DNA of 64,000 nt from Spisula solida (lineage: Eukaryota > Mollusca > Bivalvia > Venerida > Mactridae). Position 1 is the first letter of the stretch, and every line of letters begins with the position of its first letter. The position numbers and the translations under genes were made by a program. This document shows, piece by piece, positions 2,641-54,467 of the stretch. Where the stretch lies: contig OX365962.1 in assembly GCA_947247005.1 (NCBI GenBank), positions 9,459,201-9,523,200 on the forward strand. The letters run 5' to 3'. A model generated the notes under the pieces. It saw nothing but the letters and a program-made list of their open reading frames with translations, was not told the DNA's origin and did not search any database.

Positions 2641-2839
2641 CAGCGTGCAGGTTTTGGGGTCGACACAAATAGTTTTGATGTGTCATAGTGATCATACATG
2701 TACATGCATTATTACCGTTGTCATTGACCATAATTATTATGTTTAATCTTGTATATTGTAATGTAAATATTTGTATTATAATATTTGTATTATGTACTCA
2801 TAAACTGTAAAGTCTTATTTTTGGAAATCAACCATATAA

Positions 2840-31028: not shown

Positions 31029-31878
31029 GTTAGAACATATTAAGTAAATTTTATTACTAAAAAGGACTCGCTTCGCTCGCTCCGCCCTTTTTGTGCCCCA
31101 ACACTTATTTATAACTGGGGGCATATAGCTTTGGTGCTGTCCGTCCGTCCGTCCTCACGTACGTACGTACGTACGTCTGTACGTAACACAAATATTGTGT
31201 GTTCAACTCCTCATAAACTACTGGGTGGAATTTCTTCAAACGTTTACAGATGAACAACCTCAATGTATAGATGATCGTTAAGGATGGAATTTTCGCTGCG
31301 TTAATTCTGACCAGAGTTATGGCCCTTTGTTACTTCAACTATATACCCTATAGTGAAAATCTTGTGTATTCAACTCCTCATAAACAACTGGGTGGAATTT
31401 CTTCAAACTTTCACAGATGAACAACCTCAATGTATAGATGACCGTAAAGGATGGGATTTTCGCTGTGTCAATTTTGACTAGAGTTTATAGTTCTTTGTTA
31501 CTTTTACTATATACCATATAGTAAAAAAGCATGTGTGTTGAACTCCTAATAAACTACTCAGGGGGGGAATTTCTTCAAACTTTCACAGATGAACAAGCTC
31601 AATGTATAGGTGACCGTAAAGGATGGATTTTTTGTTGTATCGATTTTTACCAGAATTATGGCCCGTCGTTACTTTTAATTTTATTATGATGGCCTTTGAT
31701 ATTTTTAATAGAATTATAGTCCACAAGGCTAAAGAAAGTGAATAATGATGTTACCTCAAACTGCTATTCCCCTCACCTTCCTCATTTTAAGGGATATGTG
31801 CTATAATGGGGGCACCCGTGTCTCATGGACACAATTCTAGTTGATCATTAAAATTTACTTAATATGTTCTAACTATAA
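31029..31878. mobile_element. Composite TIR element carrying a 167-bp tandem triplet
   Basis: The outer ends TTAGAACATATTAAGTAAAT (left) and its complement at 31850-31878 are nearly perfect inverted repeats of about 27 bp. Inside are a GGGGGCATATAGC end at 31117, CCGTCCGTCCGT and (ACGT)n simple repeats, and three units of about 167 bp starting near 31199, 31367 and 31534 (TTCAACTCCTCATAAAC, TGGAATTTCTTCAAAC, ACAGATGAACAA), then GGGGGCACCCGTG. This internal family is common in molluscs. No coding region was seen. Confidence 0.6.
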
Positions 31879-32491
31879 CATGAAGTGACTTGAGTATTTC
31901 ATCTATCTAAAGTCAGTCAAACCGATCATCTTTTCTAATATACAACATTATACAATCTCCATCCGCCAGGTGTAATCCGATAGTGGACGGAACGAATCGA
32001 TAATTTCCGTAAATTTCCGTAAAAATGCCGAACGCGGTAAAACAATTATAGTGCCTTTATGTAACTCCTAATTTCCCCGCTTTAATATAATTTATTATTT
32101 TATTGAAAAGTATCATTCAAACCATAATATATTTTTCTTATCAATTCTTGCTGGAGAAATATGTTGGTTTCAAGCATATTATTTAAAATACAAGTTAAAC
32201 TGGAAAGATTTGATATTTTTTTATCCAATTGCACTATATTCAATGTAAAAACGGGTGGTTATTTGTTAACGATAATTCCCCTGCCCTAAACCACAAAATA
32301 ATCTAAATATTCATGCATTAATAAGAGAAGAATAAACTGCAGTTTTTAAATCACCCTATAGAAATTAAATCGTTTAAACAATAAAAAGTAATGACAAAAT
32401 AACTTCACTGGTCCCTCTGTATTCGATAGTGTCGACGATGGCCATTTTGAGCGATTTTGCGCTAATCGGATAAGCGATGTTGTTGTACATG
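31879..32491. other. Upstream region of the NLR-like gene, no other gene
   Basis: AT-rich. A TTTCCGTAAATTTCCGTAAA direct repeat lies at 32006. No clear promoter was identified; a 5' non-coding exon of the gene at 32822 could lie here, because a splice acceptor-like TATATTTTCAG precedes its ATG. Confidence 0.35.
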
Positions 32492-32642
32492 ATTTGCTTT
32501 CAATAAAATATAAAATCTTTTTTCAGCCGCTGTGCCGTTTTGTCCATTACCCTGTGAAACCGTGGAAAGTGTAGGTTTCACAGGGTAATGGAAAAAGCGG
32601 TAAAATCGCTGAAAACGATTATATATTTCATGGAAAGCAAAT
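32492..32642. repeat. Large foldback 180 bp upstream of the NLR-like start codon
   Basis: The arms 32492-32561 and 32574-32642 are inverted repeats. The inner stretch is the closest match, with TCCATTACCCTGTGAAACC in one arm and its exact complement in the other, around a 12-bp loop; ATTTGCTTTC pairs with its near complement at the outer edge. In RNA this would give a long hairpin in the promoter or 5' intron of the downstream gene. Confidence 0.75.
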
Positions 32643-32750
32643 AATTGTCTCCAGAGCGTGGCGTATATTTCATAGAAATCGATGAAGATATAAAATACCT
32701 AATCTTGTTACTGTGACCAAAATCACCTGGTATTGCTACACTGTAAAATA
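32630..32750 (-). repeat. Dispersed repeat related to 21918-22260
   Basis: The reverse complement reads GTAGCAATACCAGGTGATTT, CAGTAACAAGAT, TCTTCATCGATTTC and GAAATATACGCCACGC, the same order as near 22 kb but without the MITE found there. Confidence 0.6.
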
Positions 32751-32821
32751 CTACATTTGTTATGAAAGAGTATTGATTTGCAGCAATCAATGAGCAATTA
32801 ATTATATTTTCAGCAAAAAGT

Positions 32822-32993
32822 ATGGCAGACGATATGCATATAGAGATGTTGAGTACTAGATTATTCGTCTACAGTCAGTTTACCAGTGCAATACCGAGGT
32901 CATTTCCAATTGAAGTCTGCTCTGCAGGTGCTGTTAGTTTTGTGCGAATGTTGTTAGTGATGTCAGGTATTGAACAAAATCCGGGACCGACAG
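32822..32993 (+). CDS. NLR-like gene, exon 1: leader with 2A-like motif
   Basis: It encodes 57 residues plus one nucleotide. The leader ends MLLVMSGIEQNPGP-T, which matches the 2A ribosome-skipping pattern ExNPGP preceded by hydrophobic residues. The usual D three residues before N (DxExNPGP counts D as first) is G here. If active, translation would release a 55-residue peptide and restart at Pro56. 2A-like leaders on NLR proteins are known from sea urchins and 2A-like motifs also occur in non-LTR retrotransposons, so an origin from a captured retroelement exon is possible. ATG context is AAAGTATGG. The donor is CAG/GTAGGA. Confidence 0.7.
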
Positions 32994-35900
32994 GTAGGAT
33001 AGTAGTTCCATTTATTCTTTAAGGATCATATCTTACTTTTCTGTTCATGTTTTTTTTAAATACATAGGCCTCCAGTCCATACACAATGTTGGATGTCGGG
33101 CGTGCTTTAACATTTTAGTTGTCCCTAAATGCTGTACCTGAATCGACAAATTCAACTTTGAATTGAAGTGACATTGTATAAAATAATTATGATGTGTGTA
33201 ATAGGTACACTGTGTGATGTAATGTGTAATTGTTTGTTTTATTTTCAGAAAAGTTTATATTCCGGTATCAGTTTCTTCTGATCGAGATTGGTACCGGAGT
33301 TTTGAGGACCTTGTTCGATATTCTTGTCAACAATGACTTTATGCAATATCTCAATGCAAATCCTACCCAGCATACTCAACTACAGTTTCTGATGAATAGA
33401 GATATAATAACTGATGCACAGAAGCAGTTCTTACCACCCCTTGATACAAAGCCGAATTCTGCAAACTTCGATGTCACCCTGCTGGCTTGCCTCCTCAGAA
33501 ATGTGTGTGGTCTTCGTGGTCCGAAAGATCTTGTTTGGAAGAACCCTCTTTCTACAGATTTATCAATAGAGGCAGATATTGTCCGACTAAGGGAATGTAG
33601 AAATAATGTATGTACCAATTATGTTTACAAATAGTTAGTTGTCCATCGGTCGTTTTTCAGTTTATTATGATTATTTTGTTTGAAATGTTACAAACGTGTT
33701 GGCAAAGTAATTTAGCATGTATGCAAGCATAGTCAAAATAAAAGGATACTACTACATCTATTGATTACCCGTGTAATTTTGAAAATCACTTGTTTTCGAT
33801 TATGCAATCATAAGATGTCGTGTTTAACTTGGGGCGCTTTTGTTTGCAACAAACCTGGTTTAGTTTCTATCTGGTTTGTCAAACTGTCCGTTTGTTCAGT
33901 AAAACTGTTTTGCCATTTGTTAAAAAAAAACATCTCGAACCGGTTTGTCAAACCTTCCAAACTACCCCCGGAGGCTATTTGATCGGTTTGATGCATCTGA
34001 AATTACATGCAGTTAAGCGCGGGAAAATGGCCGAGCATGTTTACCATTACTGAATCTCTTAGTACACACTTTATTATTTGATCTGATTAGCTATGGTCAG
34101 ATTTTTACGTTATACATGTAATTATGAATTGACAATGTTTTAATCTAACGTAAAGAGAGCAATTTAAATTATATACCATCCTAGTATTCAATATATCAAC
34201 CAAATTTCCAAATATGACAGCCTTAATCAGGGAATAACAAAAGAAATGAGATAAAACTTCATTCTTTTTTATTGTTGTTCTTTATATAAGCGTGTGTTCC
34301 TGTTAATATATCAAGACCATAGTAAAGCTCTTTTCTGTCGCCTTGGTGATCAAAATGTTTCTTCAAACTACCCGTTTGTTCGCCACTCAGTTTAAATCGA
34401 AACCAATTTGAGTTTACTGTCAATCGTTTCACCAAACCTAAAACCCAAGCTGAAACCGGATATTTTCAACAAAAGCGCCCTTGCATATTGCCTATCAATC
34501 CATATTCTATACTCACTTTAAGACGAATGTCGTAGTTGTTTAAGGGCATAATTCTGAAACCATAATTTAGTCTGTTTATGATAATAACTTGTGCATATGT
34601 ATCATAAAGTAATATTTATCTGTTGCTCGTTAAAGAACAAAATAATTTAAAAATTAGACCAAACTCTGTTTGTTTCTGCAGACACTGTCAAAATCCGATA
34701 ACTAAGAAACTAATAAAGTTGTGTAATATTTGTAGTATTTAAAGTAGTTTGGCGAAATATACTTTATTTGTTTGACTAAAAGTTATATCTTTAATTTAAA
34801 AATTTTTTAAAAAGTTCCAGTTTCGGTGTAAATATATGGTGATTGAGGACATTGCATCTTGGTTATTGCTAGATACAGTTACTTTTCGGTGTATTTAAAA
34901 TACTTCAGCGTCTAAGACTTCCATTTTACGAATTACTCAATTGTGCATGTCTTAAACTAATACTGGTTGTCCTTCCTTAAAGTATAGATACGGTAAAGTT
35001 GAAAAATATATCTCTGTGGGACATAACTGTGACATATGTTCTTAAGTGCTGCTACTATAATTATCATATATGAAACATGACATTAAGGTACAAGGTAAAG
35101 TTGTACACTGTTTACTGTCTAATTCTTACCGAATGCAGAAATTCTTACTTTAACAAATCATAAATGATAAAATATCACATGGTGTTGCATGCTTTCTTTT
35201 ACAGCTTTTACACAGTGGTACAGTGTACATAAGTGAAACAGTTTTGACCACAAAATGGAATGAACTATGCACAGTAAGCAGTTTTACATACTAGTACTAC
35301 TTATAAATGATCAATGTAAAATGTGTATTTACATACATTTGTACATGGCTGATTCTTTGAAATTCTTTATTAGCATATGTATAACTTAGTATGTGTATAG
35401 TGGCCATCAATGACTTAGCGGTAATCTGATAAATGTCTAGACATTCTTCACCCAAGTACAGATGTGGCAGTCAAAAGTCTCAGTCTAAAAAATTACCGGG
35501 TTGTTACAATCTTGGTACTGTAACGAAATAATATTTAAATGTTACTACGCTAAAACCTCAAAGAAGTGTACATGTATTACACAATACATGTACATATGTT
35601 TGTATAGTTGTGTGGCTAACATTGGTATTACCCACCCACGCCACTGACTGAATTTTGTAATCTTGCTTATTATCAATTAATATTAGCAGTATAAATCTCA
35701 ATATAATACCAATATCTCAAAGGTCAAGGTCACACTTGGAGTTCAAATGTCAAAAGTGGCCATAGTTTAGCTTGTCCAGAGCATAACTAATCGTTTATTG
35801 TGGGATTTGAAAATAATGAGGCACACATTTTCACTTCTGCCGGGCAATGTCTCATGCAAAACAATTACACAAATATCTCAATGGTCAACGTTGAAATTTG

Positions 35901-38900
35901 AGTTCAAAGGTCAAAAATGGCCAAAACGTAGCTAGTGCAGTACCTAACTTAGTCATTTATTGTGGTATTAAAAGGTAATGTGGCACAAATGTTCACTATA
36001 ATCAGGCGGTGAGTCATTCGGAACAATTACGTCAATATATCAAAGGCCAAGGTCACACTTTGGGGTAAAAAATAACCAATATTTAGGTTGTCTGGACCAT
36101 AACTTTGCCATATATTGTTGAATTTAAATAAAGTTCAATTTGTGTACATCATGATTGTTCTTATTGATGTCATCATGTGGTTTGCCATACGCCAGGTTTC
36201 ATTAGTCACTCTGTGACAGTTCTAGTTATAAAATCGGGTTTCCACGTGTGTCTCTGTAACATATTGGCCAATCTTTAAACTTGGTCATTAGGAGTCATAT
36301 ACATGTACTACACACTATGGTGTGTATCAAAGCAAAAGCTTGTTTAAAATCAATGCGTCACTGTTTTGACCTTATATGTAAGAAAGCCTGGACACAATGT
36401 TTGTCCGCTATTAAATTCACAACATAATCATATACCCTGTTTACAATATAGATATATCACAGAAACACACATCACAGAAACGAAAATTGTCATTATTTAG
36501 CTACTTAATTTGTACATTGTAGATTGTCGTTATGATTAAAGCACAATATATGTACTCCCCACGATAAAAGCCTTGTAAGTGGCTTTCACTTTATTGAACG
36601 TTACACTGTGCTGTTGAATTCTAATGTACTCATATTGATAATGTGTGACTGACTTACACTAATTTACCTGCAGATTCTAAACAGACTCAATACCACTTGT
36701 AAAATTGCTGACTTGCCAAAACAAATGGTGGATGCAGAGAAGATGGATGTGGACGAGGAAATGAAAAAGCGTCATAATGATATAATTAAGCTGTGGGTGG
36801 AAATGGATCGTTCCCTTGATCATGGTATTGCAGAATTGAGAACGGAACTGGAAAAAGGACATGGTGAGCTGAAAACAGGACAAACTGAGCTGAAAACACG
36901 ACAAGCTGGCCTGATAAAAGGACAAGCTGAACTGAAAGCGGGACAAACCGGCCTGATGAAAGGGCAAGCTGAACTGAAAACAGGACAAACTAAACTGAAA
37001 ACGGGACAAGCTGGCCTGATAAAGGGGCAAGCTGAGATGTTAACAGGACAAACTGAGCTGAAAACACGACAGGCTGGCCTGATAAAAGGGCAAGTTGAAC
37101 TGAAAGCGGGACAAACTGGCCTGATGAAGGGGCAAGCTGAGCTGAAAACTGGACAAACTAAACTGAAAACGGGACAAGCTGGCCTGATAAAGGGGCAAGC
37201 TGAGATGTTAACAGGACAAACTGAGCTGAAAACACGACAAGCTGGCCTGATAAAAGGACAAGCTGAACTGAAAACAGGACAAACTGAACTGAAAACGGGA
37301 CAAACTGGCCTGATAACTGGGCAAGCTGAGATGTTAACAGGACAAACTGAGCTGAAAACACGACAAGCTGGCATGATGAAAGGGCAAGCTGAACTGAAAA
37401 CAGGACAAACTGAACTGAAAACAGGACAAACTGAACTGAAAACGGGACAAGCTGAGCTGAAAACAGGACAAGCTGAACTGAAAACGGGACAAGCTGAGCT
37501 GAAAACAGGACAAACTGAACTGAAAACAGGACAAACTGAACTGAAAACGGGACAAGCTGAACTGATAACGGGACAAACTGAAGTCAGATCAGGCCAAGCT
37601 GAGCTGAAAACTGGACAAACTAAACTGAAAACGGGACAAGCTGGCCTGATAAAGGGGCAAGCTGAGATGTTAACAGGACAAACTGAGCTGAAAACACGAC
37701 AAGCTGGCCTGATAAAAGGACAAGCTGAACTGAAAACAGGACAAACTGAACTGAAAACGGGACAAACTGGCCTGATAACTGGGCAAGCTGAGATGTTAAC
37801 AGGACAAACTGAGCTGAAAACACGACAAGCTGGCATGATGAAAGGGCAAGCTGAACTGAAAACAGGACAAACTGAACTGAAAACAGGACAAACTGAACTG
37901 AAAACGGGACAAGCTGAGCTGAAAACAGGACAAGCTGAACTGAAAACGGGACAAGCTGAGCTGAAAACAGGACAAACTGAACTGAAAACAGGACAAACTG
38001 AACTGAAAACGGGACAAGCTGAACTGATAACGGGACAAACTGAAGTCAGATCAGGCCAAGCTGAGCTGAAAACTGGACAAACTAAACTGAAAACGGGACA
38101 AGCTGGCCTGATAAAGGGGCAAGCTGAGATGTTAACAGGACAAACTGAGCTGAAAACACGACAAGCTGGCCTGATAAAAGGACAAGCTGAACTGAAAACA
38201 GGACAAACTGAACTGAAAACGGGACAAACTGGCCTGATAACTGGGCAAGCTGAGATGTTAACAGGACAAACTGAGCTGAAAACACGACAAGCTGGCATGA
38301 TGAAAGGGCAAGCTGAACTGAAAACAGGACAAACTGAACTGAAAACAGGACAAACTGAACTGAAAACGGGACAAGCTGAGCTGAAAACAGGACAAGCTGA
38401 ACTGAAAACGGGACAAGCTGAGCTGAAAACAGGACAAACTGAACTGAAAACAGGACAAACTGAACTGAAAACGGGACAAGCTGAACTGATAACGGGACAA
38501 ACTGAAGTCAGATCAGGCCAAGCTGAGCTGAAAACTGGACAAACTAAACTGAAAACGGGACAAGCTGGCCTGATAAAGGGGCAAGCTGAGATGTTAACAG
38601 GACAAACTGAGCTGAAAACACGACAAGCTGGCCTGATAAAAGGACAAGCTGAACTGAAAACAGGACAAACTGAACTGAAAACGGGACAAACTGGCCTGAT
38701 AACTGGGCAAGCTGAGATGTTAACAGGACAAACTGAGCTGAAAACACGACAAGCTGGCATGATGAAAGGGCAAGCTGAACTGAAAACAGGACAAACTGAA
38801 CTGAAAACAGGACAAACTGAACTGAAAACGGGACAAGCTGAGCTGAAAACAGGACAAGCTGAACTGAAAACGGGACAAGCTGAGCTGAAAACAGGACAAA

Positions 38901-41900
38901 CTGAACTGAAAACAGGACAAACTGAACTGAAAACGGGACAAGCTGAACTGATAACGGGACAAACTGAAGTCAGATCAGGCCAAGCTGAACTGAAAGGGGA
39001 ATTGTTGGAAATAAAGAAACGTTTAGATGGAACAGTTCCAACCGGAGCATATGGCTATGACAATGTGGACCCGGTGACAGGTATGTCGTGCTCTGTTATT
39101 TCTGACCAGTGCTGTATTCCCTGTCCTATCACAATAGTTTTGCAGATGGTTGTTCCTGCTTCATAAAAAATCTCCAGATGAAGCTGATTGATTTATTTCT
39201 TCTGTTAAGTTTTATTTAATAGAGGATCTTGCATAAGTGCTCATTACATACGAGTTTTATTAAACGAGTGGACAAAATGATATGACACGAGACTGTGCCG
39301 AATGTCATATTGTTTTTGTCGACGAGTTTAATAAATGTAATGAGCACGAATGTAAGATTCTATTTAAGACATAACCTTAGAAAACGCTCATGATTGTTCA
39401 AAAGGATGATGTACGCTGCATTTGTTTCAGCCAAAATTCAGCGGTACATTGAGCGCGACGTCATGGCGACATTGATATTATCCTGACGTCATTGATGGAT
39501 CAATGCGTGGATTGTCTAACGTCACGTCAATCTAATTAAAATATATATTGCACAGTCTGGGAGTGCCAAACGATATTTACGGCACAGCTTTACGGCACTC
39601 CTGGACCGCAGGTTATGTGATAATACAGTTTCTGCTTCAGTTTTAAAATTTACCACTCATTGACTTAGACATGAATGTGTAATGCAGGTCGTATTTCACA
39701 TTCAATCATTGATCTCATGTAATTAGCTAAGTGACTTCAATGCTTCATTGCATATAAATATACGTTACTAAACGTCACTCATTTTCCTGCGAATCTTATG
39801 CCCTGAAACCAATTAATAACTTAAATGTTTGATCCCATCTGTAAGCCAATTTGGATTGATGTTCATCATTACTCGCGGTCTTGAGGCCGTTGGTATTATT
39901 GGAAGCATTAAGCGATTTGACCAAGGATGAACCCGTGACCGAATATCAATGCCTGATTGGCTAATGTGTTAATCTGGCTTACGAATTCAAATCAAAGGAA
40001 GGAATTGTAAGAATGTCTTGAACCAGACTTTTTCAATTACCATCCAGACAATACTGCACAGAGTCACTGGATCAATTTAGCTTTTATGAATAAACGATGT
40101 TAACGACTGTTTGGACTGTTACGTAAACTGTTCTCGTTTATTCGTATTCGAAATGACGCTAAGGGGTTTGCGTCATTACAATTATTGTCTTATACCACTG
40201 TTAATTAATTATAACATACGATGGGTGTCCCAGTAAATCGTGTACTTTGCTAATGCAATTATGATTTTTTGTAGTAACCTTTATATGTTTTATTTGTATA
40301 AGAATCAGACATTGTAAATATTCTGATATGCCAATGATACATATTATCCGCGATTGACCAACCACATGTACACGCATGCGGCGCAACCTATATAACGCAT
40401 CGGGATTTGGTCAATGTTTGTCCGATAGACTTGTAATTCTCAAGTTTTTATTTCATCGTGATTCAAAATTTTCACATATGCATGTACGTATTACTGTGTT
40501 TATGCTGTCATCACAGTAAATTTCAAAGGAAATCCATCAACGGCGCGAATAATGCATATGTTTGAAGGGTCTCATTGAAAAAATAAACGACCGAAAAATG
40601 CGACGTCAGAAGAGGAAAACCCCCAATAGAACATGAGCACAGTTTTCATGTTTAAAATAACATCGATATTTATTTTAAGACGCTAAACTACACTGACAAA
40701 TTTGATGTAATGTCTATAGAACATTTTCGTAATAAGACACCGAATATGAAGTGATGCTAAGGACATTACTGGCTTGTGTATCCACCATACCTACTGTGTC
40801 ATGCACCTATGGAGTTTCATTCTTCTCGCAGTTGAAGGCAAATTCTGGGTTAGGTGATTTCCAGATTGAGGGTCAAATGTTTGGGTATGCAACTATATTA
40901 TGGTGCATAATGACAGTGACTGGTTCGCAAATTTGTTTCAGAAATTGGTAAAACTGGACAATAATTCAAGTAGGTTGAAACAGCGTTACGCAGTATGACG
41001 TTCTAATCATGACGTCACTTGCGCCGCACATGCTTACCATGTGTTATGATTAGAAAAATTATACCATGGCACCTTGATATCTGCTCGGAACATATTTATT
41101 AAATATCAATGCAAAATTTAAGCTTATGCTTGAAACACATTTTGTGCAATAAGCAAGGTACACGATTTACTGGGACATCCCTCGTACACGTTGATTAGGT
41201 TAGATTAACCGGTTATAAAGTCGATAATACTGATCAGTCAATTATCTGGCAGAGGAAAACTAATTGACTTGTGTACCTTGGATAGTTTCACGACTTGATG
41301 TCCCAGTGTGGCTTGTTTGTCTTTAAACAGTTTACAGTTTTACAGTTTATTTCAGAATTTAAGGCATAATGCCCATGGATCATGATATAAATGATTGATA
41401 TAGTTACTAGGTATTTTGATCATAAAAATACTTATGATATACTATTTGATACAAGAATGCACATTTATTCATATTAAACAAAGCGGACATTACATTCAGT
41501 CGTGTGCCACGACCCGCTTTTTATACGTCCGATTTCTTTAATGTGAACAACTTTAGGGAGCGCACATGCGTGTGGCGGCGTCCAGTAATTTGAATGTACT
41601 CTAATTAAAACAGTGTTCATCTGATCGCATTCAAAATTGGAGACAGTGATTATCAGCATACTATCTAGAACATGTTCGATAATAGGCACAATCGACTCAG
41701 ACCTTCTTAGATAATGGCCACCACTCGGCACTGTTTTATCAAAGCACTTACGAAAATCTTAAAGTTTCGCTCGAATTTTAAACAAAATAAAACGAATTTC
41801 AATCTGATCGTAAGTTACGATTTGCGTAAGTGCTTTGATAAAACAGTACCTCATTCAAACAGTTTTCACTCGATTGTCTTCAAACTTGCTGACACTGTTA

Positions 41901-44900
41901 ACAGGCATTCCATTTAAGGCCCAATCGACCAAGACATTCTTGGATACTGATCCGTGTAAACTGGCCTTGTCTGTACTGTAATCCAAACAGTTGTATCTGA
42001 TCGTCTTTAAACTTGCTAAGGGTTTGATTTCAAGCCTCATCGGCCTAGGCTTTCTAGGATTACGGCACTTAAATTTACAAAGGAAATGTAAAATATGCCA
42101 TGTTTGTACTCTATTTCAAACAGTTTTCATTAGACCGTTTTCAATCTTAGTGACAATGAATATTGGCTTAGGCCAAGTTCAATTATAGGCCCAATTGACC
42201 GGCCTTCTTAGATGATGGCCCTTGAAATAACAAAAATGTGAAATTGGTCTTGTCCGTACTCTATTTCAAAGAGTTTTCATTAGATCATTTTCAATCTTAG
42301 TGACAATGAATATGGGCTTAGACTAAGTTTGATTGTAGGCCTAATCGACCCCGGCCTTCTTGGATGATGGCCTTTGAAATACCAAAAATGTGAAGTTTGT
42401 CTTTTCTATATTCTAGTTTTCAATATACTCTAACAGATTTTACCTAGTCATCTTCAAACTTACAGATAATGTTTATGGGCGTAATATCTTGACCAAGTTC
42501 CATTATAAGACTATTAAGCCATGGCTTTCTCCGATAATGGACCTCGAATAATCACATAATGCGAAATCATCCAAGTTGAATTACTTTATTTTCATTCACA
42601 ATGCCTGAAAGACGGGCGTATTTTTGTGATATTTTTGCTCTTGTATGTGTGTGCTTTACAAACTGGGGTACCTTTTCACGTTTACATTTATCTATAACCT
42701 TTTAACGAATGCAAATTGTGGTAAAGATGTCAGCAATATATCTGAATAAGTTTTGACTTAAGCAACGGTCACTGCCTGGCGTACTTGAAAGTACGCACTG
42801 TCTACCTGACAACATTTCTAAATCCGCCCAAGATTTATACCGCCTCCGCACGAATTTGGGAGCAAGCAGACACGAAATAGCATGTTTCGTGTATTAGGTA
42901 CTTTCGGTGTGTTTCAGCTGCGTTCGGGCTACGGATTCACCTCCAATTACATAGTCGCTTTCTTCTGTCAACTAACAACGTAAGGACAACATATGTGATC
43001 AGCACATGTAAGTACGGTCTCCGTACAATAACGTGACAATCGCACGGCGATCGTAAAATGTACGCACGTACAACTCACCTATGTGGGGAGCGAATCACGC
43101 CAACATCGATCTGCGGCGCCCAGGACTAATGAACATATACAGTCACAGCCCTCACATGTACCAATTCACACCATGGTCGAGTGGAGTATGTGGGTTATTC
43201 TTGCTCCGAGAAATTAAGCAGTGGTCCAGATTGCGGTTGAACCCGGGACCTCTCGATCTCGAAACGCGCGCGCTCTTCCTATGGGACACCGCTCCCCAAC
43301 CTGTGCGCAACATACGAGGCTTACAGTCACTCACGGTCAGTGGAACCCGTGTGTGTCAAGTGCGTCGACGTACTCTCTCCGTACTAAGTTCCCACGTTTT
43401 TTAAAAAAACGCGTAGCGACCGTAGCCTCCCAAAGTGCCAAAAGCACGCACGTTTGGTTGTTACCGTCTTTTAGGAACTACAACAAAATTTGCGGTCGTT
43501 ACACTTTTAAAGAATTTAAATTTAAGCGTAAGTTTAAGATTTTCATTAGAGCTTTTATTAAACAAATATGATGATTTTTATGGAAGATATTTTCTAATAT
43601 TCAACACTTCAATGTATATGTTCTAGTTTCAGATCTAAAACAACACCTGGTAGAAACTTACAATCGAGATTGTTGCACTTTGCCACTATCACCCTTGTAT
43701 CAAGAGGAAGAAGAGGATTTTTTCCAAGTTTATCAACCTCCGACCATGCATCAAGTAGACTATCACAGTTCTGAGAGAACGACAGCAAACACCAGTATTT
43801 CATCATACAGGGATATATTTGTTCAGAACGAGCAATATTTTCAAAATATCTATGTCACGGGTGATGCTGGTGTTGGAAAGACATCACTGTGTAAATGTTT
43901 ATGTTTGTTATGGTGCAAATCACAAACTGGAAGTAAAAAGGACGATCATCCAGATATTAAAATCTTAGCCCGATTTGAATTCGTATTTTGTATATCACTC
44001 AGAGATACTGAATGTAGAGATGTAGTTAGCATGATTGCTGATCAGTTTTTTGACTCGGGGAGTAAGGAGCAACACGCAACCATTAAATATGTGTTAAAGC
44101 ATCATAAATGTTTAATTATTTTAGATGCCTTTGACGAGTGGTCGCCAAAGGTACGGGGTAAAAATGAATGTAAACTCCCACTCAGAGTACATTCTGACAA
44201 TTGTGTGTACCTTACAACATGTCGACCGTACAAAATTGAGAATGTTCGGCTGTCACGTCGAGAAATTGATCAGCATGTTCGTGTCAGTGGCATCCATGGA
44301 AAGTCTTCAGAGCGTTTCATTATAGAGGTAGTAAAACATATGAACAAGGAAAATAAAGTTGACAAGAACGCTGAAGATTTCATGAGAGAAGTAGAGGAAT
44401 GCGGTATAAGTGAACAATTGTGTATACCTATGATTGCCTCGCACTTGGTAGTGGTGTGGTTCGCACAAACACTCACTAAAATGTCCAAAGCAGCTTTGTA
44501 TGGAAAAATTGTAGAGCTGCTTTTTGTTCGGGCAAAACAGAGAAATGTCAAATCACCAGCATCGACAACTTCTGAATTACAACTTCCTGTTGTTCTATCA
44601 AATCTTAGATATCTAAATGAGCATGTGTCTTTGTTGCAGAAGGTATGCTTACTGTCTTTCAGATCATTGTTTGAACAAGACGAAAACGTGTTTAGTCTCG
44701 TTTTTACAAGACATCAATTAATGTCGGAACCATATTTATTGTGTGATGAAGAAATGGACTTCTTGTGCAAGATTGGCATTTTGTCCAAAAATAAATTTAT
44801 TGGTTGCTATGAAGAGCGCAAACAAAAGTTGTCATTCTTGCACAAGAGTTACATGGAATTTTTCGCTGCATTGTTTGTATCTTCATTTGACACAGAGCAT

Positions 44901-46256
44901 GTATTTAACAATGTAGTTACAGAATGGACATCAGTCAATGATGTTATTCAATTTCAAAATGTTCTCATTTTGCTAGCTTGTTTCTCATACCAAAGAGTTA
45001 AACGCTTGTTCGACACTATTTACCCGACCATATCAAATGATTTGGTATTGTGTAGAACTTATGCTATATTTCTCTTTGATCAATGTCTCTACATGGAACA
45101 AATCAAATTACTACAGCTTATTGTAACCAATTGTTGGAAAGAAGGCGGTAGATGTAATTATCCAATTAGTGCACTACAGCTTCAAGATTATGTTTTTGAT
45201 GACAACTCAAATGTTGAAACATTGAACCAGCTACTGTTATCAAATGCATCTGTTGTAAAATCATTATATTCAGTAAATGGAAGATATAATTTCAAGTTTG
45301 GTCAGATAAAAAATCTCCAGTGTTTAAATATTGGTAGAATTGTTCCTGGTGATTATACACATTTCAATGAGTGCATGTTACAGAATCAAGCAACATTGCA
45401 TACTGTATGTATTGCGGGTGGTTTTGATACACACCCATTGTTATCAGAACTACCCGTCGGAAATCTTCCACATCTGACATCATTGTCTCTGACTGGTATC
45501 AAAATGGAACACAACAGTCTGCATCATCTGGTGAACTATCTGTCCAATAACGTCCTTATTGAAAATATACGATTGGTGTCTGTACTGTGTGATAATCACC
45601 AGAAGGATGATGATGGAGACTGTACAATGTTGTTAAATCTTCACAATCATTCACATCTCACTTATTTAGATCTGTGGAATGTTAACATTTTATGTCGTGA
45701 TGTTAACATTACTTGTTTAAAGTACCTCGCATTGTTGCCATCATCTGAGAAGATTGTGAGTTGTTATATGGATGTATTGAAGTGTATAACGGGATCACAA
45801 CTTGAATGTCTTGCCATTCATGGACGTAACATGTTAGATTACAATACAATCAATACAATAATATCAACAATTAAAACTCTCTCTGATATCAAACATCTAG
45901 TACTGACTGGCATGATCTTACTTGGTGATGAATTGTTACATCTACACCCTCATGTTACACAAGTAGAGGAGGTATGGCTGCATGATGTCACGTGGAGTTG
46001 TAAATGCTTCCATTCTTTCGTTCACAGTGTTATACATGTAGATAGTAGATCTGTGAAAGATGTTTCGTTATATCAATGTAAAGTTCTGTCAGTTCATGGA
46101 AACACTCGAAGACAAATGTCAGAGCTAGAATCATTTGATTATATGTTCAAACATCTAGAACAGCAACCAACTGTTAACATATTGTACAAAGGTAGACTTA
46201 AAGGTCACCGTTTCGATGGAGATGTGTTATTATTTAACACAACAAGTAGGGAATAA
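32822..46256 (+). CDS. NLR-like protein: 2A-like leader, DZIP3-type HEPN, heptad repeat, NACHT, LRR-like (5 exons)
   Basis: Model: join of 32822-32993, 33249-33607, 35205-35273, 36674-39080 and 43633-46256. Phases match at all four junctions (1, 0, 0, 1), every intron is GT/AG, and the result is 5,631 nt, 1,876 residues plus stop. Domains in order: 2A-like motif 48-56; HEPN about 59-205 with RNNLLH at 175-180; heptad repeats about 264-973; NACHT with Walker A GDAGVGKTS (1079-1087), Walker B LIILDAFDEW (to 1172) and sensor-1-like YLTTCRPYKI (about 1195-1204); the conserved FLHKSYMEFFAALFV (about 1404-1418); leucine-rich-like repeats about 1563-1790. By family this is a cytosolic STAND/NLR-type innate sensor: NTP-driven oligomerisation through NACHT, with HEPN as a putative RNase or interaction effector. 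That role is inference. A leaderless start further 5' or a non-coding first exon is possible because an acceptor-like TTTTCAG ends 8 nt before the ATG. Confidence 0.8.
33249..33607 (+). CDS. NLR-like gene, exon 2: DZIP3-type HEPN domain, first part
   Basis: The acceptor is TTTTATTTTCAG. It encodes residues 58-177, starting EKFIFRYQFLLIEIGTGVLR and including NPTQHTQLQFLMNRDIITDA, FDVTLLACLLRNVCGL and ADIVRLRECRNN. These blocks match the pattern of DZIP3-like HEPN domains frequent in bivalve NACHT proteins. It ends at phase 0 with AAT/GTATGT directly after RNN, the first half of the RNxxxH motif. Confidence 0.75.
33608..35204 (+). other. Intron 2
   Basis: 1,597 bp, donor GTATGT, acceptor TTTCTTTTACAG. 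It contains the MITE at 33831-34480. The remainder is AT-rich and I see no exon in it. Confidence 0.65.
33831..34480. mobile_element. 650-bp MITE in intron 2
   Basis: The ends GGGGCGCTTTTGTT and AACAAAAGCGCCC are inverted repeats; GGTTTGTCAAAC-like words recur inside in both orientations. No coding capacity. Open frames of 62-77 codons at 33761-34053 lie within and are spurious. Confidence 0.65.
35205..35273 (+). CDS. NLR-like gene, exon 3: HEPN motif completion (23 codons)
   Basis: This short exon was found by frame and splice sites: acceptor TTTCTTTTACAG, donor ACA/GTAAGC, phase 0 at both ends, exactly 69 nt. It encodes LLHSGTVYISETVLTTKWNE plus LCT. Joined to exon 2 it gives RNNLLH, the RNxxxH signature of HEPN domains, then the helix typical of DZIP3-like HEPN (TxxxWxE). 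Its fit to the family is the main support. Confidence 0.7.
35274..36673 (+). other. Intron 3
   Basis: 1,400 bp, donor GTAAGC, acceptor TTTACCTGCAG. Its second half holds the degenerate 168-bp satellite listed separately. No exon was recognised. Confidence 0.65.
35700..36230. repeat. Degenerate 168-bp satellite, three units, in intron 3
   Basis: Repeated blocks are ATATCTCAAAGGTCAAGGTC, GGTCAAAAATGGCC, CATAACT and TTTATTGTGG. This family of tandem units is common in mollusc introns. It ends with CACTCTGTGACAGTTCTAG. Confidence 0.65.
36674..39080 (+). CDS. NLR-like gene, exon 4: heptad-repeat region
   Basis: It encodes residues 201-1002. It opens with ILNRLNTTCKIADLPKQMVD, then an acidic/basic helix and, from about residue 264, some 100 heptads of the type GQAELKT, GQTELKT, GQAGLIK or GQAEMLT. 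The DNA is a 21-bp minisatellite. Leu recurs every seven residues but G or Q sits where a second core position would be, so a canonical coiled coil is not certain; an extended amphipathic spacer is equally possible. It closes with GELLEIKKRLDG, VPTGAYGYDNVDPVT and the donor ACAG/GTATGT. The 646-codon antisense frame here is a by-product of the stop-free repeat. Confidence 0.75.
36863..38990. repeat. Coding 21-bp minisatellite with 462-bp higher-order repeat
   Basis: The basic unit is 21 bp (GGACAAACTGAACTGAAAAC plus one base). Twenty-two units form a 462-bp higher-order repeat that starts at 37133 and recurs at 37595, 38057 and 38519, four consecutive copies that look identical at both DNA and protein level. 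Upstream units (36863-37132) are related but less regular. Since 21 and 462 are both multiples of three, expansion or loss never breaks the frame. Confidence 0.92.
39218..39620. mobile_element. Foldback element in intron 4
   Basis: GTGCTCATTACATACGAGTT, TTTATTAAACGAGT and ATGATATGACACGAG are inverted against AATGTCATATTG, CGACGAGTTTAATAAA and GTAATGAGCAC within 39235-39350. Further out, GACATAACC and GGTTATGTGATAA, and repeated GGCACAGC/GGAGTGCC, suggest a larger element. Limits are approximate. Confidence 0.45.
40217..41186. mobile_element. 970-bp mariner-like element in intron 4
   Basis: The termini are TACGATGGGTGTCCCAGTAA (left) and, reverse-complemented, TACGAGGGATGTCCCAGTAA (right), each followed by ATCGTGTAC; together about 31 of 34 bp match. 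TA at both edges fits the Tc1-mariner target duplication. A 66-codon frame inside is not a transposase, so this is a non-autonomous or gutted copy. Confidence 0.7.
41690..42560. repeat. Degenerate 165-bp satellite, about five units, in intron 4
   Basis: Recurring blocks are CTTGTCCGTACTCTATTTCA, AACAGTTTTCATTAGA, TTCAATCTTAGTGACAATGA, AGGCCCAATTGACC and CTTCTTAGATGATGGCC. Unit length is about 165 bp and units are well diverged. Confidence 0.7.
41730..41847. mobile_element. 118-bp MITE with perfect 23-bp inverted ends
   Basis: ACTGTTTTATCAAAGCACTT-ACG at 41730-41752 is exactly inverted at 41825-41847. The interior is AT-rich. It sits inside the first units of the 165-bp satellite. Confidence 0.75.
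43165..43275 (+). mobile_element. tRNA-like sequence, probable SINE head, in intron 4
   Basis: ATGGTCGAGTGGAGTATG resembles a type 2 (Leu/Ser) tRNA A-box region and GCGGTTGAACCCGGG about 65 bp downstream resembles a B box. The cloverleaf does not close well, so a tRNA-derived SINE is more likely than a tRNA gene. Confidence 0.35.
43633..46256 (+). CDS. NLR-like gene, exon 5: NACHT domain and LRR-like C-terminus
   Basis: It encodes residues 1003-1876. It begins DLKQHLVETYNRDCCTLPLS, the linker seen before NACHT in this bivalve family, then YQPP and the nucleotide-binding core: NIYVTGDAGVGKTSLCKCL (Walker A with GKT/S), CLIILDAFDEW (Walker B with the D..DE pattern), YLTTCRPYKI (sensor 1). The winged-helix segment ends with SFLHKSYMEFFAALFVSS, a hallmark of NACHT proteins. 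The C-terminal third has spaced LxxLxL motifs (LQCLNIGRIV, LPHLTSLSLTG, HLTYLDLWNV) compatible with irregular LRRs. All key NTPase residues are present, so the domain looks intact. It stops at TAA with no frameshift. Confidence 0.88.
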
Positions 46257-46449
46257 ATGTTTGCTTCTGTTTGTGAAAAACAAGTCATACTAAAAGTGAT
46301 TTTAGTATTAAGTATGATATTCTATGAAACATGAACCATTGTGTGAATGTTGAGAGAAAAAAAATGAACATATTGTGTTTGTATTCCTAAAGGGGAAACC
46401 TGTCATGTGACCAAGTCTTCTATTAGTTAGAACACCACTGTACTTACAT

Positions 46450-46455
46450 AATAAA
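46450..46455 (+). terminator. Candidate polyadenylation signal of the NLR-like gene
   Basis: AATAAA about 195 nt after the stop codon. Another AATAAA overlaps the stop itself (46252) and one lies at 46699. Which is used cannot be told from sequence. Confidence 0.35.
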
Positions 46456-48115
46456 TCATTTTTAATGTAACCATGCATACTATTGGTTAGGATATTACTA
46501 TCATGTTTTGATGTTTATGTAATGTTTTAATTGTTCAGTGTGGACATGCCACGTGATATTTTACGTAACTTTTGGCTATGAAGTAAAATTATATCAACAA
46601 AAAGTTAATCAAAGTACTTAAGTTATTGTTATTGAGGTGATCGCATTTCTTAGTAATATAAGATTTCATAGTTCGTCGGGGATAATCTAGACTTATCAAT
46701 AAACACACGTGCATACTATACATTATGCTCGGTCGACTGACATGTTATCAGTGTGGATTTAAATAGTACATCATTGAAATTCAGTATGCACAAGATTGAT
46801 GAAAATGAACATCGGAAATGCATTTAATTGTCATTTTTATTTGTGACCAAACGCTAGTGCTATCTCCGGCGCACTATACATTGTAAAGGATTAAAAATTT
46901 GTAAACAAAATGACAACGTTTTAGAAATGTCGATGAAAGGTGAACGATTCAAATCTGAGCACAACGGATCCAAAACAATACTAAAGCTCGTGAAGGCAAT
47001 ACACCTACTGTAGTCTTAAGTACATGTAATATGTCACATTGTATGTTTGATTCCAAGTTTCAATGTGTTTTCCGAGGTTCACGCATGAGTGACGTCAATG
47101 TTTACACATCAAACGCATTTTCGCGCGGAAAAGCGCTTTTTCACTTTGGGAGTATATCATAAAAGGAATATCACTACAGTTGTGTTGAGACTTCGGACCG
47201 TATTGCCTCTTAATCTTGTTGCTTGCGTTTAACTGCATCTCGCTCGACATAACGGTCTAGCGAGTTACGGCATAACATCAGCAACTCTAGGTAATACAAC
47301 CAAACGTATCAACACACTGCAGTCGTAAACCTGGGGTAGTTATATGTATATTTTGTATGAGAAACAAAACGTTTTTCTAACCATTTGCTGCAATATTTAT
47401 ATCATACCTCAAGAAACATGTGATTTGTTATTGGCACCAGTCTGCATCCGTCAGTCAGACCTTTCATTAAATGTTGTACCTGTGTGTATTTGTACTAGAC
47501 TTGTACATGTAATAAATGATGATATATTATCGATATACGTCTTGCTGTTCTGATTGTCTAGTATATTTAACATAATAAAGTAGACATACAGTCAATCCTG
47601 TCTGTAAAGACCACCCATGGAAATATCAAAACAATATTGATGACTGTTGGTTGTCTCTTTGTGGGAAAAACGTCCATGAAAATGTCATATTTGTTGGTCT
47701 CCCATAGAAGGATAAAAGTTATTGAAAATTGTTTCATAGGAAAAACTGTGCATGTAAGTCTTGCACGACTGGTATGTGATTGCAAGAGGTCATAACACAC
47801 GGTGGATTGTATATCTATTCCACGTATATACCACGTACGGTGAGTAAAAGTATCCTCTATGTGCTGGTACAGGACACTTTATGCAAAACGATGGTTTCCA
47901 GTTGGCGCAGAGCCACATGGGTCAACAAACACTGGTTTCTGTATAAAGACATATATACCACAGGGATCTACAATTGCCTTTTTTATCGTTTAATAATACA
48001 AGTTGAACCTGAGACGGAACATAGACCGGGGTGCTTGCTCAGATGAACATCGAGTCGTGTTTATGAAGCTTACGACTTTTCTTGAATACAGCAACATCCA
48101 TCTCGTATTAGCTTA
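46456..48115. other. 3' flank, no supported gene
   Basis: AT-rich. Frames of 69-88 codons at 47344 and 47780 have no features. From 47591, CAGTCAATCCTGTCTGTAAA resembles one end of a pogo-like MITE, but no matching opposite end was seen. Confidence 0.45.
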
Positions 48116-48987: not shown

Positions 48988-51255
48988 ACGGTTGATGATG
49001 ATGGTGGATAGGTTAATAATGATGCTGAATGGTTGATGGTAATGATGATGATGGCTTGACTGATGATGATGGCCTGACTGATGATGATAGTGGCTAGGTT
49101 ATTAATGATGATGTGTTGATGATGATGATGGCTTGGTTGATGAGATGATGATGGCCTGACTGATGACGATGGCTTGACTGATGATGATGGCCTGACTGAT
49201 GATGATAGTGGCTAGGTTAATAATGATGATGGCTAGGTTGGTGTGATGATAATGATGGCTTGGCTGATGATGATAATGGCTTAGTTGATGTTGATGCTGG
49301 CTTTACTGATGATGATGGCCTGACTGATGATGGTAGGTGGCTAGGTTAATAATGATGATGGCTAGGTTGATGTGATGATAATGATGGCGTGGCTGATGAT
49401 GATAATGGCTTAGTTGATGTTGATGCTGGCTTGACTAATGATGATGATGGCTTGGTTCATGATGATGATGGCTTGGTTGATGATGATGATGGCTTGGTTA
49501 ATGATGATGATGGCTTGGTTGATGATGATGATGGCTTGGTTAATCATTATGATGGCTTGGTTGATGATGCAGATGTCTTGGCTGATGATGAGGATGACTT
49601 GGTTGATAATGATGATGACGGCTTGGTTGATGATAATGATGGCTTGACTGATGATGATGGCCTGACTGATGATGATAGTGGCTATGTTAATAATGAAGAT
49701 GGCTATGTTGATGTGATGATAATGATGGCTTGGCTGATGATGATAATGGCTTAGTTGATGTTGATGCTGGCTTGACTAATGATGATGATGGCTTTGTTAA
49801 TGATGATGATGGCATGGTTGATAATGATGATGTCTTGGCTGATGATGATGGCTTGGTTGATAATGATGATGCTGGCTTGGTTAAAGATTATGATGGCTTG
49901 GTTGATAATGATGATGGCTTGATTGATAATGATGACGGCTTGGCTGATGATGAAGATGGCTTGGTTGATAATGATGATGACGGCTTGGTTGATGATGATG
50001 ATGGCTTTGTTAATGATGACGATGGCTTGGTTGATGATGATGATGGCTTTGTTAATGATGATGATGGCATGGTTGATGATTATGATGGCCTGGTTGATGG
50101 TGATGACGGTTTGGTTAATAATGATGATGTCTTGGCTGATAATGATGATGGCTTGGTTGATGATGATGATGGCTTGGTTGTTAATGATTATGGCTTGGTT
50201 TATAATGATGATGACGGCTCGGTTGATGATGATGATGGCTTTGTTAATGATGATGATGGCTTGGTTGATAATGATGATGTCTTGGCTGATGATGATAATG
50301 ATGGCTTAGTTTATAATGATGATGATGGCTTGGTTGATGATGATGATGATTGCTTGGTTGATAATGATGATGGCTTGGCTGATAATGATGATGGCTTGGC
50401 TGATGATGATGATGATGGCTTGGTTGATAATGATGATGGATTGGTTGATGATGATGATGATGTCTTGGATGATTAACATGATTGCTTTGTTGATAATGAT
50501 GATGGCTTGGTTGATGATGATGATGGCTAGGCTGATGATGATGCTGGCTTGACAAATATTGCTGGCTTGACTGATGATGATGCTGTCTTGGTTGATAATA
50601 ATGATGGCTTAGTTGATGATGATGATGGCTTGGTTTATAATGATGATGGCAGGATTGATAATGATGATAATGTCTTGGTTGATGATGATGATGGCTTGGT
50701 TGATAGTGATGATGATGGCTTGGTTGATGATGATGATGTCTTGTCTGATAATGATGCTGGCTTGACTAATGATGCTGGCTTGAATGATGATGATGAACGC
50801 TTGACTGATGATGAAGCTAGCTTTGCAAATGATGATGGCTTGATTGATAATGATGATGGCTTGGTTGATGATGATGATGGCTTGGTTGATAATGATGATG
50901 TCTTGACTAACGATGATGCTGTCTTGACTGTTTATGACCCTGGCTTGACTGATGATGATGCTGGCTTGACTGTTGGTGATGCTGGCTTGACTAATGATGA
51001 CGATAGCTTGACTGGTGATGATGCTGTCTTGGCTAATGATGATGATGGCTTGACTGATGATGATGTTGGCTTGACTAATGATGATGATGGCTCGACTGAT
51101 GATGGCTTGACTGATGATGCTGCTGGCTGAGCTTGATTGATGATGATGATGGCTAGGCTAATAAAGATCATGAAGGCTAAGCTGATGATGATGGCTTGGC
51201 TGATGATGATGATGGCTTGGCTGATGATGGTGATGGCTTGGCTGATGATGATGCG
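48988..51255. repeat. GAT-rich 21-bp minisatellite, about 2.3 kb
   Basis: The unit is GATGATGATGGCTTGGTTGA plus one base, with frequent 3-bp gains and losses of GAT and variants GCTGGCTTGACTAAT, AATGATGATGTCTTGGCT. Because lengths stay multiples of three, plus frames of 121, 248 and 193 codons (49389-49754, 49730-50476, 50549-51130) read as DDDGLVD repeats, other frames as MMMMAWL and the minus strand as HHHQPS or SSSTKPS. There is no signal peptide or unique flanking domain, so I do not call a gene, although acidic repeat proteins do exist in mollusc shell matrices. Confidence 0.85.
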
Positions 51256-51713
51256 GCAACCTTACGATCCCACGAGGAAAACTATACTCTGAATCCGAGT
51301 TACAAGTAAATACAATACGAAAAGATTCAGAGCCCCATTCACAGTAGATATTACTTATTTTTCAATTTGAATGTCCACAATAAGTATGAAAGAAACTTAC
51401 ATCTACTACTCAAGGTATATTAATGAACTAAGGAAAACTGGCAACATAATTTGACATACAGGGAATATATGTCGGTATACGTAGGGTCTTATTTATAGGA
51501 CGTTTGTGTATTAATGTACATGTATTTAATTCGATCATACGGATAGTAATTGAGTGAATTGAAAGGTGCGATCAATTTCCTTAATATTAGTGTGTGCGTT
51601 TGAAAGGAATATTAGTATTTCTTAAATTCTGCTCGGAAATGGCTGGTCGTTAATAAGGGTATGTGATGTTACTTGAATAAACACGGTGATATACTTATAT
51701 TGAATAGTAAATA
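51256..51713. other. No supported gene
   Basis: AT-rich; nothing recognised. Confidence 0.5.
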
Positions 51714-51850
51714 ATGTCCTACAACGATGCAGTCGATGACTCCATTGACGTTATAATGATGTCAAACAACGATGCAGTCGATGACTCCATTGACGTTATA
51801 ATGATGTCATTCAACTATGCAGTCGATGACTCCATTGACGTCATAATAAT
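51714..51850. repeat. 45-bp tandem repeat, three units, CRE-containing
   Basis: CAACGATGCAGTCGATGACT, CCATTGACGTTATAATGATG repeats every 45 bp. The third unit has a full CRE (TGACGTCA) where the others have TGACGTTA. A 74-codon plus frame over it is probably fortuitous. Confidence 0.85.
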
Positions 51851-52212
51851 GCCATTGTCAACGCACATTCTAAAATATCTGAATATGCACAAAATGTTGT
51901 ATTGTACTGTGAAATGGGTAAATGTATTGCTTTCGTGAAAAGAATAATTCATTTATGATAATAAATGTTCATTGGACCCAACAATACACCCCCACAACAC
52001 ATAAGAAACGAAAATATTGTGCGGGTAAGTTTGAAAAAAGAAGGGTAACATTTAAGAGAAGAAACACAACAACAATATGGAACGAAAAATGACGTTTATT
52101 ATATGTTCCCTAAGAATTAAATACTTAGGTGCTTATCTCCATAACTTATTGTTGTATGACTGAATTAATAACATACCAAGGGACACAACACTGTTACATC
52201 AGAAATATTATT
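51851..52212. other. No supported gene
   Basis: AT-rich; nothing recognised. Confidence 0.5.
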
Positions 52213-53895
52213 ATTACATGAGTTACTGTTACATGTACTGTCTGATATAATAGACATGTTTCATTGTCACACAGTATCGTTATATTGAACACTGTCCTTG
52301 TACATGTACTGGTATATTACATGAATTACTGCTACTGTCTGATATAATAGACATGTTTCATTGTCTCACAGAATCGTTATATTGAACACTGTCCTTGTAC
52401 ATGTACTAGTATATTACATGAATTACTGCTACTGTCTGATATAATAGACATGTTGCATTGTCTCACAGTATCGTTATATTGAACACTGTCCTTGTACTAG
52501 TGTATTACACGCATTACATGAGTAACTGTTACTGTCTGATATAATAGACATGTTTCATTGTCACACAGTATCGTTATATTGAACACTGTCCTTGTACTAG
52601 TGTATTACACGCATTACATGAGGAACTGTTACTGTCTGATATAATAGACATGTTTCATTGTCACACAGTATCGTTATATTGAACACTGTCCTTGTACTAG
52701 TGTATTACACGCATTACATGAGTAACTGTTACTGTCTGATATAATAGACATGTTTCATTGTCACACAGTATCGTTATATTGAACACTGTCCTTGTACTAG
52801 TGTATTACACGCATTACATGAGTAATGTTACTGTCTGATATAATAGACATGTTTCATTGTCACACAGTATCGTTATATTGAACACTGTCCTTGTACTAGT
52901 ATATTACATGAATTACTGCTACTGTCTGATATAATAGACATGTTGCATTGTCTCACAGTATCGTTATACTGACCACTGTCCTTGTATCATAATATTACAT
53001 GAGTTACTGTCTGATATAATAGACATGTTTCATTGTCACACAGTATCGTTATATTGAACACTGTCCTTGTACTAGTATATTGCATGAGTTACTGTTACTG
53101 TCTGATATAATAGACATGTTTCATTGTCACACAGTATCGTTATATTGAACACTGTCCTTGTACTAGTATATTGCATGAGTTACTGTTACTGTCTGATATA
53201 ATAGATATGTTTCATTGTCACACAGTATCGTTATATTGAACACTGTCCTTGTACTAGTATATTGCATGAGTTACTGTTACTGTCTGATATAATAGATATG
53301 TTTCATTGTCACACAGTATCGTTATATTGAACACTGTCCTTGTACTAGTATATTGCATGAGTTACTGTTACTGTCTGATATAATAGATATGTTTCATTGT
53401 CACACAGTATCGTTATATTGAACACTGTCCTTGTACTAGTATATTGCATGAGTTACTGTTACTGTCTGATATAATAGATATGTTTCATTGTCACACAGTA
53501 TCGTTATATTGAACACTGTCCTTGTACTAGTATATTGCATGAGTTACTGTTACTGTCTGATATAATAGATATGTTTCATTGTCACACAGTATCGTTATAT
53601 TGAACACTGTCCTTGTACTAGTATATTGCATGAGTTACTGTTACTGTCTGATATAATAGATATGTTTCATTGTCACACTGTATCGTTATATTGAACACTG
53701 TCCTTGTACTAGTATATTGCATGAGTTACTGTTACTGTCTGATATAATAGATATGTTTCATTGTCACACAGTATCGTTATATTAAACACTGTCCTTGTAC
53801 TAGTATATTGCATGAGTTACTGTTACTGTCTGATATAATAGATATGTTTCATTGTCACACTGTATCGTTATATTGAATTCTGTCCCTGTATATGT
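52213..53895. repeat. 91-bp tandem array, about 18 units
   Basis: The unit in the right half is 91 bp and contains TACTGTCTGATATAATAGAT, ATGTTTCATTGTCACACAGT, ATCGTTATATTGAACACTGT and CCTTGTACTAGTATATTGCA. The left half has TAGACATG instead of TAGATATG and some longer units with TGTATTACACGCATTACATG. The right half is nearly uniform, so homogenisation has been local. Confidence 0.92.
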
Positions 53896-53960
53896 ATCAT
53901 GTAGATGGAAAAGTAGTAAACCATCCTATTGATATTCTGTTTAGGAAACAAACCTTTTAA

Positions 53961-54000
53961 ACATGATACATTCTGACAAGCCAATGACGTAACATAGATC
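53961..54000. repeat. Solitary unit of the 51-bp family
   Basis: ACATGATACATTCTGACAAG, CCAATGACGTAACATAGATC matches the 51-bp unit at 1226-1926 over 40 bp with only a few differences, including the TGACGTAA octamer. It is about 52 kb from that array. Confidence 0.75.
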
Positions 54001-54467
54001 ATATGCTACTAAAATGCACAAATACCAACTATTTCAACTGATTTATATTGTCAGCAGTTAGTTATTACGTGATTACAATTTTTTTTATTATTACATAAGA
54101 CCTATGAAAATGGGTAGGTCTATCAGGGTGATGCCGATGCCATATGGATCTTAAACATACAGTCCAGTTAGGATATTGTGGCAGTGACGTTGCAGTTTAT
54201 GTGTACACAAAATAAAACAACCATTGTCTGAACAGGTGGTGAAAATACATATAAGTTTAACACTGAACTTGTCTTTTGTACAGTATAAGCCTTTATAATA
54301 GGTTTTACACCGTTATTGACGACTCGACCATTGCGTCACTTGATGTTAACACTGACTGGACTGTACGTTTTTGATAGTATATTTTATGCTAACAAGTTCA
54401 GTTAAAGGAAATTTATATAATTCAAAATTTATCACGAACAACGTAATGGTGCCTTTCTTTGAAATTC
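54001..54467. other. No supported gene
   Basis: AT-rich spacer between two arrays; nothing recognised. Confidence 0.5.

Follow-up and report, generated by a model that had tools for sequence, protein, structure and literature searches.

The locus at positions 32822-46256 of C20:9459201-9523200 in the 932-Mb Spisula solida assembly, a stretch of 64,000 nucleotides referred to here as the window, raises the question of whether a leader, an effector, a repeat-encoded spacer and a sensor form one NLR-like gene, and what such a gene would do. Five exons on the + strand, the strand of all parts of the gene given below, give a single 1,876-residue frame with one terminal stop and without internal stops or frameshifts in its 1,876 codons. 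The exon borders are all GT/AG with compatible phases, and the five-exon model of the earlier note proved exact. From N- to C-terminus, a StopGo/2A-like leader is followed by a DZIP3-type HEPN that carries an Rx4H motif, by 101 heptads and by NACHT and LRR.

Exon 1 (32822..32993; residues 1-58), defined by the frame, a GT donor and hydropathy, encodes a leader with a hydrophobic stretch, GAVSFVRMLLVM, and homologous leaders occur in Mactra proteins and in paralogs within the same genome. Exon 2 (33249..33607; residues 58-177) carries the bulk of the DZIP3-type HEPN, with an E-value for PF18738 (HEPN_DZIP3) of 1.8e-20 that improves to 4e-26 (92 bits against a gathering score of 27, profile positions 8-141 of 144) in the spliced protein, a gain that independently supports junctions 2 and 3. 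Exon 3 (35205..35273; residues 178-200), in phase 0 at both ends, supplies the LLH of the Rx4H motif and the next HEPN residues, and 8-16 of its 23 residues are identical across five Mactra proteins. Exon 4 (36674..39080; residues 201-1003) comprises the HEPN end, linker head, heptad array and linker tail. Exon 5 (43633..46256; residues 1003-1876 and the stop) encodes NACHT (PF05729, 45.1 bits against a cut-off of 26.7, E 1.3e-11), a winged-helix/HD2-like part and the LRR, assigned with the help of an AlphaFold2 model and structure matches. The open frame of the repeat was rejected as proof of coding by itself, as the minus strand is also open. A Pfam scan of ten other ORFs in the window gave a single weak match below the cut-off, and no tRNA or Rfam match was found in the window.

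The closest proteins come from clams. A query in which most heptads of the window protein were omitted retrieved six proteins, and five of these, from Mactra antiquata, have HEPN and NACHT and align over 95-97% coverage at 36-39% identity; these and the other Mactra sequences come from database models. When the five are aligned with the gene model, all are homologous across junctions 2-4 and four across junction 1, P0002 having no leader. A division into a leader-HEPN gene and a separate NACHT-LRR gene, without splicing between them, would accord with the 46 of 81 HEPN matches in the genome that have no NACHT match within 30 kb downstream (among the matches listed), but it is highly improbable in view of this homology and of the recurrence of the exon order in own-genome paralogs. 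Borders, phases and homology over the junctions thus confirm the earlier proposal of five exons with GT/AG introns and matching phases, and profiles, fold and paralogs bear out its parts and their order, from 2A-like leader through HEPN and heptad spacer to NACHT-LRR. The architecture looks like that of a genuine clam immune-receptor gene.

Two further searches brought the homolog list to 48, of which 23 have PF18738: 13 from Mactra (12 also with a NACHT Pfam match) and 10 others, including Mercenaria, Ruditapes and Mytilus. The RNxxxH motif that the earlier note linked to possible RNase activity is intact in the window protein as the Rx4-6H motif RNNLLH (residues 175-180), which intron 2 cuts between RNN (33599..33607) and the LLH of exon 3; R-N-x3-H is kept in 22 of the 23 PF18738 homologs. 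The profile search suggested earlier likewise places both HEPN_DZIP3 and NACHT above their cut-offs. In the pearl oyster Pinctada study, Rx4-6H is given for 194 of 202 HEPN proteins (PMC9646362).

The P-loop GDAGVGKT lies at 43860..43883 and the LRR part at 45165..46253 (exon-5 residues 511-873, border approximate). The LRR call of the earlier note stands by fold, the exon-5 model aligning with NLRC4 (1-866) and with LRR proteins, but not by profile, as no Pfam LRR profile matches the window protein. Exon 5 resembles human NLRC4 (PDB 4kxf, 8fvu) in its NACHT-to-LRR fold, with 14-17% identity in the aligned structure matches; compared with the PDB by sequence, exon 5 gave one match, with an E-value of 0.19. 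The full-length model of the Mactra homolog P0005 has a mean pLDDT of 68.2, which falls below 50 in stretches that include residues 1-53 and 235-298. Its 50 listed structure matches are mostly LRR proteins and none reaches the HEPN, which says nothing against a HEPN fold. Human NLRC4 carries a CARD where the clam protein has HEPN, and is not known to have a 2A leader.

The leader contains the core GIEQNPGP (32966..32989), preceded by the hydrophobic stretch; G occupies position 12 in 2A numbering and the predicted break falls between G and the last P. It fits the expanded core (D/G/C/N)(V/I)ExNPGP as defined in PMC12846837, whereas the original strict core has D at position 12, a residue found in one paralog, C20_189k. 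According to PMC12846837, RNA viruses have G at this position as often as D and the G form functions, motif 5 upstream of 2A ends in (A/G/S)G at position 12, and D12A abolishes F2A, so a G12 core needs the right context. LLVMSG of the window leader agrees with the wording given for motif 5, which is outside the four upstream motifs described there as assayed (PMC12846837). The 2A-like leader of the earlier note can be placed, from its core, in a G12 form published as active, and belongs to a published functional StopGo class, with splitting of the product predicted.

Fifteen leaders were selected by their core motif; G is at position 12 in 14 of them and D in one. Adding p1301 and p1347, whose cores are broken, gives 17 recognised leaders, 15 of them with an intact core. 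Invariance of the core in the 15 was rejected as a sign of selection because the core was the picking rule, and NPGP at 43240 was rejected as a 2A as it has no core. Three residues outside the picking rule are invariant too: in the aligned stretch, position 2 is always G (4 codons) and positions 10 and 11 are always L (5 codons each). This argues against the leader being a plain signal anchor or a fossil retrotransposon 2A rather than a StopGo element, an interpretation that we consider distinctly unlikely even though a hydrophobic stretch lies ahead of the core, two paralogs have lost the core, and four retrotransposon-like ORFs of the same genome have similar G12 cores near their start.

The leader core is present in 11 of the 13 Mactra PF18738 proteins (P0002 is without it and that of P0014 is degenerate) and in none of the deposited models of the 10 non-Mactra PF18738 homologs. 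It is also found in two Mercenaria NACHT proteins without HEPN_DZIP3, P0034 (DUF4559) and P0043; DUF4559 is the CXorf38 family, which Anantharaman 2013 reportedly counts as HEPN. A stretch MG(V/I)D...YR.RIG.F upstream of the core is common to Mactra P0003, P0004 and P0008 and to Mercenaria P0034 and P0043, which differ in their effector domains, and may mark a longer shared 5' module.

The Spisula solida genome has at least 57 NACHT and at least 81 HEPN_DZIP3 profile matches, and 35 of the HEPN matches were detected with a same-strand NACHT match ≤30 kb downstream (among the matches listed). Ten NACHT places were read over ~20 kb upstream: the full series of leader, HEPN, linker head and NACHT appeared in order at five, all but an intact leader at two, and NACHT alone at three. 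The G12 core pattern has 73 matches in the genome vs one for a reversed control: 17 before a HEPN-NACHT pair, 4 before HEPN alone, 2 before NACHT alone and 50 before neither. Of the 35 pairs, 18 have an intact core upstream (17 G12, ≤20 kb, and the D12 core of C20_189k), against ~0.03 expected from random placement; the other 17, p1301 and p1347 with their broken cores among them, showed none. A narrower look at 1.5 kb upstream of 27 pairs found nine cores.

Reading was extended to eight more core sites, six of which belong to the 50 near neither domain. Four (L062-L065) are G12 cores near the start of retrotransposon-like ORFs, before a putative PHD-like motif, and these ORFs are a possible source of the gene leaders; at L061 the core is in a short, unlike ORF. 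Sites on contigs 13, 16 and 20 resemble gene leaders, with GGTAAG shortly past the core on contigs 13 and 20 and GTGAGT slightly later on contig 16. The contig 16 site was the one read from nine tandem G12 cores at C16:2463863-2854859, 31-64 kb apart. No HEPN_DZIP3 or NACHT match is found at this cluster among the matches listed, and another gene family may use the leader there.

The minisatellite at 36863..38992 (TRF and heptad count) encodes 101 heptads, mostly AELKTGQ or TELKTGQ, in a 462-bp higher-order unit of which three copies are exactly identical. Q is invariant at one heptad position, with L, M or V three residues later in 101 of 101; given a single fully conserved hydrophobic residue per heptad, a stable coiled coil is uncertain. 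Hydrophobic residues in the six linkers tested recur with a period of 3.50 (heptads) or 3.60 (18-mers), as in helical rods, and 710 residues in one continuous coiled-coil helix would span ~105 nm. Pfam matches to the repeat (ice-binding, vault, ATG16) were rejected as meaningless. The distance from Rx4H to P-loop is 904 residues in the window protein vs 184-310 in the 13 Mactra proteins and 101-300 in the nine non-Mactra homologs having both marks.

Paralog p9579, ~80 kb away, has no heptads where the window copy has 101, and the two copies are near-identical on either side, with 97.8% identity over the 5' half of the gene (31084-36839, introns included) and 96.4% over 43576-47236. Between these blocks a single 65-column piece aligns, in intron 4 (low-complexity filter on), so the two copies share almost nothing in intron 4 or in the linker past its head, and the length-variable spacer of the earlier note is borne out. 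Paralog p9108 has 18 heptads of the same kind as the window, p1301 and p1347 have an 18-residue unit 11 and 5 times, respectively, C2_64455k has QSEIKDA-like heptads, and C20_189k and C20_532k have short linkers without such an array; IGEVKSD-like heptads occur in Mactra P0003 and P0004. Linker length and sequence change much faster than the joined domains; as the repeat unit comprises a whole number of codons, the reading frame survives each change in length. For this reason, and because no stop or frameshift has arisen in 1,876 codons, it is rather improbable that the window copy is a recent and possibly unexpressed duplicate, its linker run away by slippage while other members work, as might be supposed from the identical 462-bp units and from a spacing so far above the Mactra range.

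Values of dN/dS against paralogs were obtained for HEPN exon 2 over three copies and for NACHT and LRR over four, with approximate domain borders. HEPN exon 2 is conserved (0.118 with p1301, 0.124 with p1347 and 0.242 with p9108; no change with p9579), the linker head gives 0.53-0.72, the pre-NACHT part 0.13-0.22, NACHT 0.21-0.44 and WHD/HD2 0.30-0.88, and the LRR is fastest-changing at 0.46-1.79. For p1301, nonsynonymous change differs between HEPN and LRR at p 8e-11. Positive selection on the LRR of p9579 (dN/dS >1) was rejected as non-significant (Fisher p 0.24). A conserved effector with a faster sensor fits an immune receptor. With p9579, there are no synonymous changes in ~132 sites of exons 1-3 vs 25.5 in 547 sites of exon 5 (p 0.005), the pattern that gene conversion, or a 5' half exchanged recently, would leave; gene conversion with p9579 over this half is possible.

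The low values for exon 2, 0.12-0.24, and the retention of R-N-x3-H in 22 of 23 homologs also bear on whether the HEPN might be an RNA-binding or protein-protein signalling module with no nuclease activity, the NLR instead recruiting partners. This is unlikely, although a table passage of PMC3710099 describes Rx4-6H as just 'mostly conserved' in the DZIP3-type family, and the HEPN is a probable RNA-cutting domain.

From the anatomy, conservation, linker turnover and pattern of selection observed, we infer, as the probable reading, that the gene is functional and belongs to an expanded family of clam NLRs, with a StopGo-split leader, sensing by LRR and HEPN dimers that cut RNA. On exon 1, ribosomes would in most cases leave the final Gly-Pro bond of the leader unformed, so that HEPN-linker-NACHT-LRR is set free as a presumably cytosolic protein with an N-terminal proline, and a minority product would keep the hydrophobic leader and may go to membranes. 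The LRR would sense a trigger and NACHT oligomerise, and the long helical linker could then bring HEPN domains together as RNA-cutting dimers. A broader and more tentative proposal, possible but doubtful, is that one portable StopGo leader exon serves several clam gene families (the DZIP3-HEPN NLRs, the Mercenaria DUF4559-NACHT and NACHT proteins and the tandem cluster on contig 16), dividing each product between two cell compartments, and that a minisatellite rod, gained, lost and replaced between near-identical copies and reaching at most ~105 nm if fully helical, tunes HEPN-NLR activation.

The interpretation in the earlier note is partly supported, and the novelty claimed there was overstated. 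Passages of PMC3710099 (Anantharaman 2013) describe DZIP3-type HEPN fused to NACHT, DEATH and LRR in animals, with an oyster expansion, and parts of PMC9646362 report >50 pearl oyster (Pinctada) NACHT proteins with N-terminal DZIP3-HEPN in 2022, so HEPN-NACHT-LRR was already in print. These DZIP3/hRUL138-like proteins, as presented there, share HEPN family, NACHT, LRR, Rx4H and bivalve expansion with the window gene. Unlike that gene, the pearl oyster proteins are described in a main text that is without '2A-like', 'StopGo', 'minisatellite', 'coiled' or 'linker' (PMC9646362). Its methods passage states that tandem repeats were masked before genes were predicted, a step that could conceal linkers of this kind, and the window gene is a case where masking may have such an effect on gene models. 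Prokaryotic HEPN-STAND defence proteins, likened here by a description in PMC3710099, also have an N-terminal HEPN and a STAND NTPase.

For the sea urchin, Roulston 2016 (PMC4981915) gives 2A-like sequences at or near the N-terminus in 85 of 241 NLRs, and a 26-residue N-terminal 2A form in 14 of 87 current NCBI entries. One 2A had ~80% activity in vitro, and a mutant unable to split was found chiefly at the Golgi, which makes the cytosolic location proposed in the earlier note uncertain. As in the window gene, a StopGo core follows a hydrophobic leader ahead of an NLR, but the sea urchin proteins carry DEATH and the core D(V/I)ExNPGP, and the clam gene HEPN and G(V/I)ExNPGP (sea urchin features from PMC4981915). 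If active, StopGo leaders on immune receptors would extend from sea urchins to bivalves with a G12 core. Searches of open-licence literature, partly loose, found neither a 2A leader nor a minisatellite linker described for a bivalve NLR, and an existing survey of eukaryotic 2A sequences may list such leaders. Each part is known on its own, and what surprises is how fast the linker changes. One animal NLR family here unites a recoding signal of viral style with a candidate RNA-cutting effector, and the differing linkers of its paralogs provide a natural series of effector-sensor distances.

Elsewhere in the genome, C14:828891-2682307 has eleven near-equal-scoring HEPN_DZIP3 matches with no NACHT match nearby (among the matches listed), possibly a recent amplification. 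Many more minisatellites flank the gene in the window, at 505-9366 and 49042-56700, with periods of, for example, 21, 33, 37, 40, 41, 51, 59, 91 and 100 bp.
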